Virus record (IMG/VR): IMGVR_UViG_3300007513_000984 | Span: 25,670 to 89,669 of that record | Reading direction: 5' to 3' (one strand) | From: a virus | DNA: 64,000 nt | In this document: one piece after another, positions 29,187 to 33,709 of the stretch | Numbering within the stretch: position 1 is the stretch's first letter | How the letters are laid out: each line of letters opens with the position of its first letter | Notes under the pieces: generated by a model | Databases searched by the model: none | Seen by the model: only the letters and a program-made list of their open reading frames with translations | What the model was told of the DNA's origin: nothing | Translations under genes and position numbers: made by a program

Positions 29187-29438
29187 ATGACTAGTAAAAA
29201 CTATGAAAATTTGAAATGGTTTGCGACATTTATGTTTGTTCTTGCTGGAGTATTGATATCTCTGAATATAGAACAATCTAAATGGGCTTTTCCATTATTC
29301 GCAACAGGACATATGACTGTGCTGTTCGTATTTTTAAGATTAAAGGATAAGCCAATGATTTTTCAGAATAGTTTCTTCTTGGCTATTGATTTCTTAGGAA
29401 TATATCAGTGGTTATTGGCGCCTATATTTTTTGTTTAA
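29187..29438 (+). CDS. Small membrane protein, about three transmembrane segments
   Basis: This 83-residue protein has three hydrophobic stretches: WFATFMFVLAGVLISL, WAFPLFATGHMTVLFVFL and FFLAIDFLGIYQWLLAPIFFV. I choose ATG at 29187 over the in-frame ATG at 29172 because GAGAG lies about 8 nt before it, while the earlier ATG has no ribosome site. The family is not recognised. It overlaps the convergent endonuclease gene by 17 bp at the 3' end. Confidence 0.65.
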   Translation: MTSKNYENLKWFATFMFVLAGVLISLNIEQSKWAFPLFATGHMTVLFVFLRLKDKPMIFQNSFFLAIDFLGIYQWLLAPIFFV

Positions 29439-29859
29439 GGCTTTTTAGATACTCAGTAAGAATTTTTGAACTTCCCACTCGTACATTGATAATACCATTA
29501 TAGTATTCATCTGTTTCTAAGACTCTTCGGTCAAATTGTTCTTTTGCTTCTAGGTAACTCATTGCACCACGACTAGGACAGTAGTGGAGTATTTCACGTG
29601 TAAATTTATCTTGGCCTAATTTTTTTACATCGGCATTTAAATAGTCAGAAGAACCCCAATAAGTTCTCCAATCACTTTCTTTATATCCACGTCTTTTGTT
29701 CTTTCTGCCTTTAAGAGGTGGTTTTGTTGTTTTAAATCGTGATAACTTCTTACCAATGTACTTACGATTATCTACAAGATTTGTAATTATATACACAAAT
29801 CCCTCAACATTCTCAGGTAATTCATCTACAACTTTATTTTTATATGTCCATTCACTCAT
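29422..29859 (-). CDS. GIY-YIG homing endonuclease-like protein
   Basis: This 145-residue protein. GFVYIITNLVDNRKYIGKK at about residues 21-39 is the GIY-YIG motif. The later YWGSSDYLNADVKKLG with FTREIL and the Glu in SYLEAKEQFD fit the remaining catalytic motifs, including the metal-binding Glu. It resembles the free-standing Seg-type endonucleases of T4-like phages. It has no large C-terminal DNA-binding extension. It sits downstream of a late octamer (29944-29951) and two hairpins, and beyond those a long structured RNA candidate, all on the minus strand. The flanking genes are not interrupted, so it is free-standing, not clearly intron-borne. Confidence 0.85.
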   Translation of the reverse strand: MSEWTYKNKVVDELPENVEGFVYIITNLVDNRKYIGKKLSRFKTTKPPLKGRKNKRRGYKESDWRTYWGSSDYLNADVKKLGQDKFTREILHYCPSRGAMSYLEAKEQFDRRVLETDEYYNGIINVRVGSSKILTEYLKSLKQKI

Positions 29860-30490: not shown

Positions 30491-30724
30491 TTATAAAATA
30501 GGTACGCCAGCCTTCTTACTCATCTCAAAATTCTCAGAAACTATATCATTTAGATACGTTATATGATTAATAGGCATATCATGGAGTTCAGATATACTGA
30601 CGCCACCACGCATATACCAAGTTAGTTTATACAAGGATTTGTGTAGAGATTCAAGTGATTTCTTATAAGACTCTTGTTTCTCTATTACTTCAGTGTCGCT
30701 GGCAGTCTTTAACCAGCCGAGGAA
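30491..30724 (-). CDS. -1 frame extension of gp26 (frameshift product, about 77 codons)
   Basis: This frame continues gp26 after a -1 slip and would give a 355-residue product: 278 residues of gp26, then FLGWLKTASDTEVIEKQESY and on to a stop at 30491. An ATG exists in this frame at 30772, but it lies inside gp26 and has no spaced ribosome site, so an independent gene is less likely. The extension is helical and charged. This layout, a short product and a -1 extended product close to a tape-measure gene, is the one used by tail-assembly chaperones such as lambda G/GT. The frame is seen directly; its use is inferred. Confidence 0.65.
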   Translation of the reverse strand, partial: FLGWLKTASDTEVIEKQESYKKSLESLHKSLYKLTWYMRGGVSISELHDMPINHITYLNDIVSENFEMSKKAGVPIL

Positions 30725-30730
30725 AAATTT
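30698..30730 (-). promoter_or_regulatory. Programmed -1 frameshift signal
   Basis: The slippery heptamer A AAT TTT (30730-30724) is in the correct zero-frame register (GTA AAT TTT). Six nt later GCTGG (30717-30713) pairs with CCAGC (30702-30698) around a 10-nt loop. Heptamer, spacing and stem are all in place. Confidence 0.65.
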
Positions 30731-31557
30731 ACAGGATTTAGTTGGAAAGTAACTTTCTCCTTGCTTTTGCATGCCTCACAAGCAAATTCAAACGTTGATA
30801 TGTCTTGTAAATTTGGAGATGCAACACTTACCGCCTTGTTTACATCGTTTACGACCTTACTTGGAACATTTTCCATAAATTCTTCAATCATTGTATTGTC
30901 AGTAACAACTTGGTCAGGTGTTTCAATTCTGTCGATAGAACTTATTAATAGGTCTATGTTCTGTTTTGATACTTTTCTGAAACTGAGAGCAAATTGTTTT
31001 GCCATAGCAATTTCATCGCTATCATCACTTTCTCCTGTTTCTTTGATTTTGTTTAATATGCGAGATTGTTCAACTTCCATTAGAGCCAGTGTTGTTAGAC
31101 TGTCTAATTTTGGCGGAGTTATAAATATTTTTAAATCTTCATGTTCAATTGGAGGAATTTCAGTTATTTCTGGAAACTTTTCAAGAATATGATTGATATC
31201 TATATTGTAATCTGCCTTTTCTTTACACTCAGAGCAAGTGTGGGTATGTTGAACGTTTTTGCCATACGTTGCATATTTGATTGCTAGATATATCATTTCT
31301 GCATCAACATTGCATAAATTCCTTGGATTTGGAATCACCGGAACACAACTTTTGATGAGATTTATGAGTGCCTCGCCGTTAAGTAGTTCATCGGGATTCT
31401 GCATTGATATTTCATCAATAGCAGTCATCGGAAGTATAGGTAACTCGTCCAATACAGTTTTTTCTATTTCTGGATTAAATCTGCCACCGGTTGGAATTTG
31501 TACATATATTCCCGGTTTACGGAAATATTTTGATAATGGGTTCTCATTGGTGTTCAT
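30709..31557 (-). CDS. gp26: Baseplate hub/tail assembly protein gp26-like
   Basis: This 282-residue protein. The N-terminus NPLSKYFRKPGIYVQIPTGG and the segment ELPILPMTAIDEISMQNPDELLNG are typical of the gp26-like protein of marine T4-likes. Two CxxC pairs, CSECKEKA near residue 120 and CEACKSKEKV near 262, form a zinc-ribbon-like arrangement. In T4 gp26 is needed for hub assembly. The reading frame ends four codons after a slippery site that would join it to a -1 frame extension. It is divergent from the tape-measure-like gene, with a late octamer at 31624-31631. Confidence 0.82.
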   Translation of the reverse strand: MNTNENPLSKYFRKPGIYVQIPTGGRFNPEIEKTVLDELPILPMTAIDEISMQNPDELLNGEALINLIKSCVPVIPNPRNLCNVDAEMIYLAIKYATYGKNVQHTHTCSECKEKADYNIDINHILEKFPEITEIPPIEHEDLKIFITPPKLDSLTTLALMEVEQSRILNKIKETGESDDSDEIAMAKQFALSFRKVSKQNIDLLISSIDRIETPDQVVTDNTMIEEFMENVPSKVVNDVNKAVSVASPNLQDISTFEFACEACKSKEKVTFQLNPVNFSSAG

Positions 31558-31678: not shown

Positions 31679-33709
31679 ATGGCAGACGAACAAGATGTTT
31701 TTATTACCGGTATAAGCGGCAGTCTTCAGCAATGGTCTACTGAGGCTACAGCAACGAAAATTGCAGGAACATTAAGACAAATTTCAACACAAAACACGTC
31801 AATACTCAATTTACTCAATGCAGTAAAGGGTGGCGAACAGTTATCTGCAAAAGAACTTGCCGCAATTAAGGCTGAACTTCGTACAAATAATAGGACTGAA
31901 AGCACAAGTGCAAAATCAGAATCAACTGCACGTGGTCAAACTCAAACTTACAGACAAAAGTTCCTTGGTGGATTACAAAGCATGGCAATGAGCGATAAAG
32001 AAGTCGCTGACCAACTGCTTAAAAATCAAAAACAACACACTATACATACTAAAAAAATAGAAAATCTTTTGGCAGCCGGAATGTCTAGAGATGAAGCAGA
32101 AAAAGCCGTAGACGGCGAAGAGAAAAAAGCAAACTGGAAGAAAATGTCTGCTGTAGCCGCCACCGCTCTGGCGAGTATTGGCGCAGTAAAAGAAGCATCT
32201 CAAGTTGGATTTGAACAAAGATTTGATATGGCATCAGAATTACGTCAAACAGGTTTGATGGATGGAATAGGTGGCATGAATGAGGGATTCATCTCAATAG
32301 CAAAAACAATTAGTAGTACTGGATTTACCTTTGGTATGGCGGCAGAAATGACTAAAGATTTTGCAAAAACTGTTGGTATAGTGGGAGTAAAGAGTACTTT
32401 AGATTTTGTTGACAGCATGGCCAGAGGTCCAGAGGGATTAATGGATAGATTTGCTTTAGAATTTGGTCAAGTAGTTGGTATATCTGGAGAATATCTAGAC
32501 TCGTTACGACTTTCAGGACAACTTCGAGGTAGGTCAGATGCAGATTTAGCCAGAGGAATGGAAAGTTTCATGTCTAACGTACAGGCAACTTCAAATGTAT
32601 TAAAAGTTTCAATGGAAGAAGCGGCAACGATATTGAAGAACAGTCTTAGTGACGTTGAAAAAGGTATGTTATTAACTCTTCCAAAAGCAATGCAAGATTC
32701 ACTGAGGGGGGCGATGTCTTTTGCAGGTGGTATGAATAATCCGATAGGAGATTTATTAGCGGCAAGAATGGGAGCAGGTTCTGAATCGATGTTCCAACAG
32801 ACTGCAATATTTCAGCAAATGTCGGGAAATGCATTAGGACAACAACTAATACAATTTGTTAATGAAGCCGCTGGACAGTTTACCCAAGGCGGAGATGCAC
32901 AGTTTCAAAGTTTCATGGCAAATAATTTGCCTGGTGTTGTTCAAGGTTATATGGAACAATATGGGCAAGGCTCTTCAAGAAGTCTCGCATTTGCTAATGA
33001 TGGTGAAATCTTACAATTATTGGCACAGATAAATCCTATGGCACAAAATATGGCAGAAGTCGCTCAAGGAATCAGTGGCGGCACTCGTGAAGACAAAGCA
33101 GTGGTAAACTTTAGAGACGAATTGATACAAGCACTAGCACGAGGCGAAGGTGCGATGAACTCTGTTATGGAAGGATATATTACAAATTTAGAAGCATTAA
33201 CTGAATCTAATCGAGTAACATCCATTGTTCATGCAGATACTATCGTTGCCAATGCAAATTTGATAGACGGTGCCAATAATATGGCTATAACGGTGGAGAG
33301 GGCTGGCAACATTTGGTCTAGAGGAGTATATCAATTCGGTACCATAATGGCCAATATGTTACCTGGCAACAACGAAAACGTAGATTTCATGTCTATTGCT
33401 GGTTACACTGAAAGAGTTGACGGAAGTCTAGTGGCAGACCGAAGCGTTCATAGGTCTTTTGCGAAAGATAGTTTAAATTTAGCAGAATCTTTATATGAGC
33501 AGAAAGATAAAGGAACATTAACGAAAGATTTCCTTCAAAAGGCAACTGCTGACTATGAAATGTTAGCCAAACAATTATTAGGTACCACGAAGACCGAGTC
33601 TTGGTCTCCATGGGGTAAGAATGCTGAAGAACAAAATGCGGCACTTCAAGCAACAATGAACAAGACAATGGCAACATTAAACGCTTTACTCGCCGAGTTT
33701 AAACAATAG
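31679..33709 (+). CDS. Tape-measure-like / baseplate hub protein
   Basis: This 676-residue protein is mostly helical, Ala/Gln/Met-rich. It has a charged coiled first part (LSAKELAAIKAELRTNNRTE, KKIENLLAAG) and a hydrophobic segment, MSAVAATALASIGAVKEA, near residues 160-178. The middle carries repeated Met/Gly/Ala helices (MNEGFISIAKTI, FGMAAEMTKDF). This is the composition of tail tape-measure proteins and of gp29-like hub proteins. The divergent gp26 with its frameshift supports this, because tail chaperones and tape measures are paired. No catalytic motif. Start ATG at 31679 has a weak ribosome site (AGAGGG). Identity as gp29 is not proven. Confidence 0.6.
   Translation: MADEQDVFITGISGSLQQWSTEATATKIAGTLRQISTQNTSILNLLNAVKGGEQLSAKELAAIKAELRTNNRTESTSAKSESTARGQTQTYRQKFLGGLQSMAMSDKEVADQLLKNQKQHTIHTKKIENLLAAGMSRDEAEKAVDGEEKKANWKKMSAVAATALASIGAVKEASQVGFEQRFDMASELRQTGLMDGIGGMNEGFISIAKTISSTGFTFGMAAEMTKDFAKTVGIVGVKSTLDFVDSMARGPEGLMDRFALEFGQVVGISGEYLDSLRLSGQLRGRSDADLARGMESFMSNVQATSNVLKVSMEEAATILKNSLSDVEKGMLLTLPKAMQDSLRGAMSFAGGMNNPIGDLLAARMGAGSESMFQQTAIFQQMSGNALGQQLIQFVNEAAGQFTQGGDAQFQSFMANNLPGVVQGYMEQYGQGSSRSLAFANDGEILQLLAQINPMAQNMAEVAQGISGGTREDKAVVNFRDELIQALARGEGAMNSVMEGYITNLEALTESNRVTSIVHADTIVANANLIDGANNMAITVERAGNIWSRGVYQFGTIMANMLPGNNENVDFMSIAGYTERVDGSLVADRSVHRSFAKDSLNLAESLYEQKDKGTLTKDFLQKATADYEMLAKQLLGTTKTESWSPWGKNAEEQNAALQATMNKTMATLNALLAEFKQ

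Follow-up and report, generated by a model that had tools for sequence, protein, structure and literature searches.

Gene 26 (gp26) of the viral DNA analyzed here, a stretch of 64,000 nucleotides that we refer to as the window, very probably encodes a tail assembly chaperone that is made in two forms from one gene through a –1 frameshift, as in the G/GT system of phage lambda; judged from its sequence, we put the probability of this reading at about 0.88. Most ribosomes would end at the zero-frame TAA and so yield a short form of 282 aa. We infer both the slippage and its minority rate: a smaller share of ribosomes would slip back by one base with AAT and TTT in the P and A sites, the slipped tRNAs re-pairing with AAA and TTT, and a hairpin located 6 nt downstream probably aids this step. 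The slipped ribosomes would complete a long form of 355 aa with a C-terminal domain predicted to be mostly helical. By analogy with lambda gpG/gpGT, the short and long forms would both form a coat around the tape measure protein, with the long form recruiting tail tube subunits, and both chaperone forms would depart before the virion is completed. The observations that carry this reading are that the signal is conserved, that the –1 frame is open and under selection, that the extension has homologs across phages, and that no independent start of the extension is conserved. The features are listed in Table 1.

Table 1. Position and proposed identity of the features at the gp26 locus (window coordinates)
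Feature	Position	Strand	Description and basis
gp26	30709..31557	–	Zero-frame product of 282 aa, probably the short tail assembly chaperone (TAC-N); PF12322, phrog_150, 25 complete close homologs
Slippery heptamer A AAT TTT	30724..30730	–	In frame; invariant in 25/25 close loci
Zero-frame stop TAA	30709..30711	–	Four codons 3′ of the heptamer
–1 frame extension	30491..30726	–	77 codons counted from first base 30724, plus stop; probable TAC-NC C-terminal domain; dN/dS, homology to jumbo-phage tails
Candidate stimulatory hairpin, GCTGG/CCAGC plus a U-G pair	30698..30717	–	6 nt 3′ of the heptamer; conserved in the clade
Divergent neighbor	31679..33709	+	676 aa; may be a tape measure or another virion protein; the CBB gene at the same position is abundant in virions

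The product of the zero frame matches the gp26 families PF12322 (E=1.3e-16) and phrog_150 (E=1.8e-19), and the gene ends in GTA AAT TTT TCC TCG GCT GGT TAA, with the 6-nt spacer TCCTCG separating the heptamer from the hairpin. In the –1 frame, 77 codons are open from TTC (first base 30724) to TAA (30493-30491), and joining them to the first 278 residues gives the fusion of 355 aa. Re-reading the minus strand and its frames thus bore out a preliminary description of this DNA as to the coordinates (30730-30724) and X XXY YYZ form of the heptamer, the stop four codons past it (30711-30709), the open –1 frame and the length of the fusion. Motifs of the type H_HH.U_UU.Y, including A_AA.U_UU.U, are among the most efficient in E. 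coli (Sharma et al., PMC4066793). A usable in-frame heptamer within the final 60 nt occurs in just one of the 55 window ORFs of at least 100 aa, namely gp26, which also has the long –1 extension. A chance origin of the signal was rejected, given that only 1 of these 55 ORFs fits and that the signal is universal in relatives. Stop-codon readthrough was rejected because the extension is outside the zero frame, and a +1 shift was rejected for the window clade, where the +1 frame closes within 58 nt beyond the stop. We also considered a second gp26 copy, as in the two-gene arrangement of T4; the whole 89.7-kb record, which may be a fragment, holds a single gp26 match.

Conservation at the site was assessed among close relatives collected by scanning viral contigs (IMG/VR) with gp26, which gave 26 loci, 25 of them complete at the site, that are 70-100% identical and represent 14 haplotypes. 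The 13-nt sequence GTAAATTTTTCCT is unchanged in the window and in all 25 complete loci. Nowhere in the region examined is conservation higher than in the 36 nt from its start, which lies two bases 5′ of the heptamer (30 of 36 columns; mean 18.6). The extension measures 77 codons in every one of the 25 loci and evolves as protein: with the 14 haplotypes compared, dN/dS of the extension comes to 0.17 when it is read in the –1 frame and to 1.2 and 2.3 when it is read in the other two, and that of gp26 itself is 0.20. Two loci (L033 and L034) carry a change of CTC to CTA that is silent in the –1 frame and creates a zero-frame stop one codon after the heptamer. Sequencing error was rejected because the 14 haplotypes, drawn from many metagenomes, agree. 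Two points that the preliminary description proposed to check, conservation of the heptamer and purifying selection on the extension, came out in favor of its claim, the former also in distant phages, where 98 of 98 loci have either T TTT TTC or T TTT TTT at the site.

The candidate hairpin has its arms at 30717-30713 (GCTGG) and 30702-30698 (CCAGC). The stem and the 6-nt spacer had been described correctly; a sixth pair, U-G, on the inner side of the five Watson-Crick pairs leaves a loop of 8 nt in place of 10. It is locally stable (–10.4 kcal/mol, z –3.3 over 26 nt), whereas over 64 nt the region is not unusual (z –0.7), and although the hairpin is conserved across the window clade, no two-sided covariation was found in it there. 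Several of the jumbo phages examined are missing a clear downstream stem. Many cyanophage loci have one (median z –2.8 against plain shuffles), and in 39 of 52 cyanophage loci a purine-rich stretch lies 7-18 nt upstream of the site; this stretch may be incidental, as it also codes for conserved residues.

Searching with gp26 by tblastn returned 78 phage records, mostly of jumbo phages akin to PA5oct, Atu_ph07, Phosso, 121Q, CBB and RaK2, and the cyanophage matches were weaker than those of the jumbo phages. When portal proteins are compared, PA5oct, Atu_ph07 and Phosso come nearest among cultured phages (51-53% identical). The preliminary description had pointed to marine T4-likes for comparison; the nearest relatives in culture are jumbo phages and not typical members of that group. 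In all 17 named jumbo phage and cyanophage loci examined, the final 40 nt of gp26 hold an in-frame T TTT TTC, replaced by T TTT TTT in XacN1 and RAS14, and the –1 tails of these loci are 60-80 aa long. Contig scans with the gp26 of S-PM2 and of Phosso gave 81 loci, one of which (L069) is S-PM2 itself, and every one of the 81 has T TTT TTC followed by a tail that is 59-77 aa long; a scan with the Vibrio 2.275.O query found nothing. Overall, the signal is kept in more than 120 related sequences (25 close and 98 distant). The base before TTT TTC is T in 67/67 loci, through eight codons for seven amino acids. As these loci are related, naive probabilities for this pattern come out too small, but the pattern is not one that the protein requires.

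None of the phage records examined annotates a joined, frameshifted gene: the tail is given as a separate small gene or is omitted. For 13 of the named loci, the start of the small downstream gene given in the record was compared with gp26, and in each it lies in the –1 frame. The tail is unannotated, though open and homologous, in PA5oct (L003, 3865-4087) and RaK2 (L042, 2850-3213). In Listeria phage LIS04 (OQ999172; L040, about 2125-2450), the gp26-family gene, which sits between the tail tube and tape measure genes, ends in GAG TTT TTT AGT. There the –1 frame is not the open one; instead, the +1 (or –2) frame continues for 217 nt beyond the stop with a translation resembling a chaperone tail, and this lineage may therefore use a different shift. 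The gp26-like gene of an uncultured 595-kb phage (LR756511, locus L047) has a long N-terminal addition and, at its end near 2708, a short –1 tail that is rich in F and in charged residues.

Comparison of profiles relates the tails of the window clade to those of jumbo phages (E=3e-9, with Phosso and Atu_ph07 left out); by eye, the Phosso and Atu_ph07 tails, too, share WYMRGG and the PIL end. The same kind of comparison gave no significant direct match between window tails and cyanophage tails. The FF motif of family gp26 ends is present in the fused protein, and phrog_150 spans both gp26 and the tail of S-PM2. T4 gp26 is homologous to window gp26 (profile E=3e-8) but differs in ending with neither slip site nor extension. 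The fusion can also be aligned with T4 gp51 (E=1e-5), the end of which resembles the tail of cyanophage P-HM1, MTFYQTNFSLVQHHKYSLTDIENMMPWER; in T4 the long form appears to be a separate gene, 51, instead of a frameshift product. Structure prediction gave models of low confidence (pLDDT 59 for gp26 and 68 for the extension, the latter mostly helical), from which no useful fold match was obtained, and PDB sequence searches found no matches.

The extension might instead be a small gene in its own right, with translation either beginning at a start within it or resuming by re-initiation once gp26 has terminated, which would make a frameshift unneeded. Public records do give a small downstream CDS in many relatives, some of them at the gp26 stop (Phosso, 121Q, BF), and an ATG near the gp26 stop in some jumbo phages would allow a separate product there too. 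In some close haplotypes a TTG overlaps the zero-frame stop, and in the window the –1 frame has an ATG at 30772, 5′ of the slip site (93-aa ORF). The preliminary description, which saw no well-placed start in this frame, is to be amended on this point, although the ATG is indeed poorly placed, with a GAGG only one base ahead of it, and is missing in most relatives. In most close haplotypes the –1 frame is closed by a stop a few codons 5′ of the slip site and offers no ATG, GTG or TTG over the first 60 nt of the extension, and many of them have none from that upstream stop through these 60 nt; PA5oct and RaK2 are likewise without such a start, and the starts annotated in relatives sit at differing positions. 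Across the close clade, we found no conserved start or ribosome site belonging to the extension, a feature that the preliminary description had said would tell against its claim. A separate gene would also leave unexplained both the invariant heptamer and the T that precedes TTT TTC in 67/67 loci, and we regard it as very unlikely. Even less credence is due to a frame change made in transcription, by slippage of RNA polymerase on the A/T run. The site is an A3T5 run, with T6 to T7 in relatives, but five or six T in a row are few for a polymerase to slip on, and tandem tRNA slippage is a better fit for the AAA that is invariant in the window clade, for the heptamer's fixed phase and for the stem that follows it.

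A different objection accepts the frameshift and takes gp26 and its long form to be structural baseplate hub proteins, not chaperones of the tape measure. Family names and the T4 annotation do label gp26 a baseplate hub protein, and the identity of the neighboring gene as a tape measure is not proven. The CBB virion proteome includes 29 peptides of CBB_251, the adjoining gene, but its protein list has neither CBB_250 (gp26) nor CBB_249 (the tail); absence from a list is weak evidence, and it fits, weakly, with chaperones that leave before maturation (PMC5259590). The place of the LIS04 gene between tail tube and tape measure also speaks against a hub role, and according to papers citing it, a 2022 study makes these genes chaperones (PMC10885494, PMC12846349). 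We consider a structural role improbable. The protein encoded by the window neighbor matched no family in profile searches or in the PDB sequence search. Part of the corresponding CBB gene has a weak match to a tape measure family (phrog_1535, E=0.003), the RaK2 annotation is in line with the same role, and a tape measure is a plausible identity for the window neighbor. On the other side of gp26, just downstream, a 145-aa protein (29422-29859, minus strand) matches a PHROG labeled NAD synthetase as well as several homing endonuclease families, and that label disagrees with the endonuclease matches.

Frameshifted chaperones have precedents both near and far. In their 2022 abstract, Vladimirov and colleagues reportedly describe frameshifting as conserved across several T4-like groups, with genes 26 and 51 serving in T4 itself. 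As cited by later papers, Vladimirov, Gautam and Davidson (2022, Virology 566:9-15) proposed a chaperone frameshift for T4-like phages, with poly-T slippery sites in TAC-N and, in some of these phages, with one gene for the short form and another for the long form (PMC10885494, PMC12846349). The chaperones so described share with the window a gp26-family TAC-N and a –1 extension as TAC-NC, and they differ, as far as the citing papers convey, in that the window lineage has A AAT TTT and a hairpin in place of T TTT TTC. Lambda gpG and gpGT, which likewise are a short form and a long form made by a –1 frameshift, are both absent from finished virions (PMC5009743). The likeness to lambda is one of layout: gp26 is longer and has CxxC pairs, and the gene order differs. 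A 2016 review still gave T4 as an exception to the G/GT type of layout (PMC5009743). The chaperone of Pseudomonas phage Adele and the Vandenendeviridae, a different phage family, is similar in that TAC-N ends in a poly-T site beyond which the –1 frame is conserved, and this part is commonly given in annotations as a separate gene or as intergenic; there the motif is GTTTTT (PMC12846349). The lambda analogy drawn for gp26 in the preliminary description is very probably right and yet less new than it implied, having been published for T4-like phages in 2022; what is new here is the lineage, the A AAT TTT motif and the hairpin.

We lean towards a broader reading, in which the gp26 annotated as a baseplate hub would be a frameshifted chaperone throughout the jumbo relatives of T4, the cyanophages and the window lineage, and the last of these would have rebuilt its slip signal, exchanging T TTT TTC for A AAT TTT and a hairpin, with the two-protein output kept. 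The broad sample supports gp26 as one half of a two-form frameshift chaperone in most of the T4-like groups examined, with T4 an exception. The long form is absent from every record examined, its second part having been split off as a hypothetical gene or left unannotated. The conserved site predicts exact junction peptides, and the way in which T4-like phages start and measure their tails is therefore directly testable in cultured relatives.
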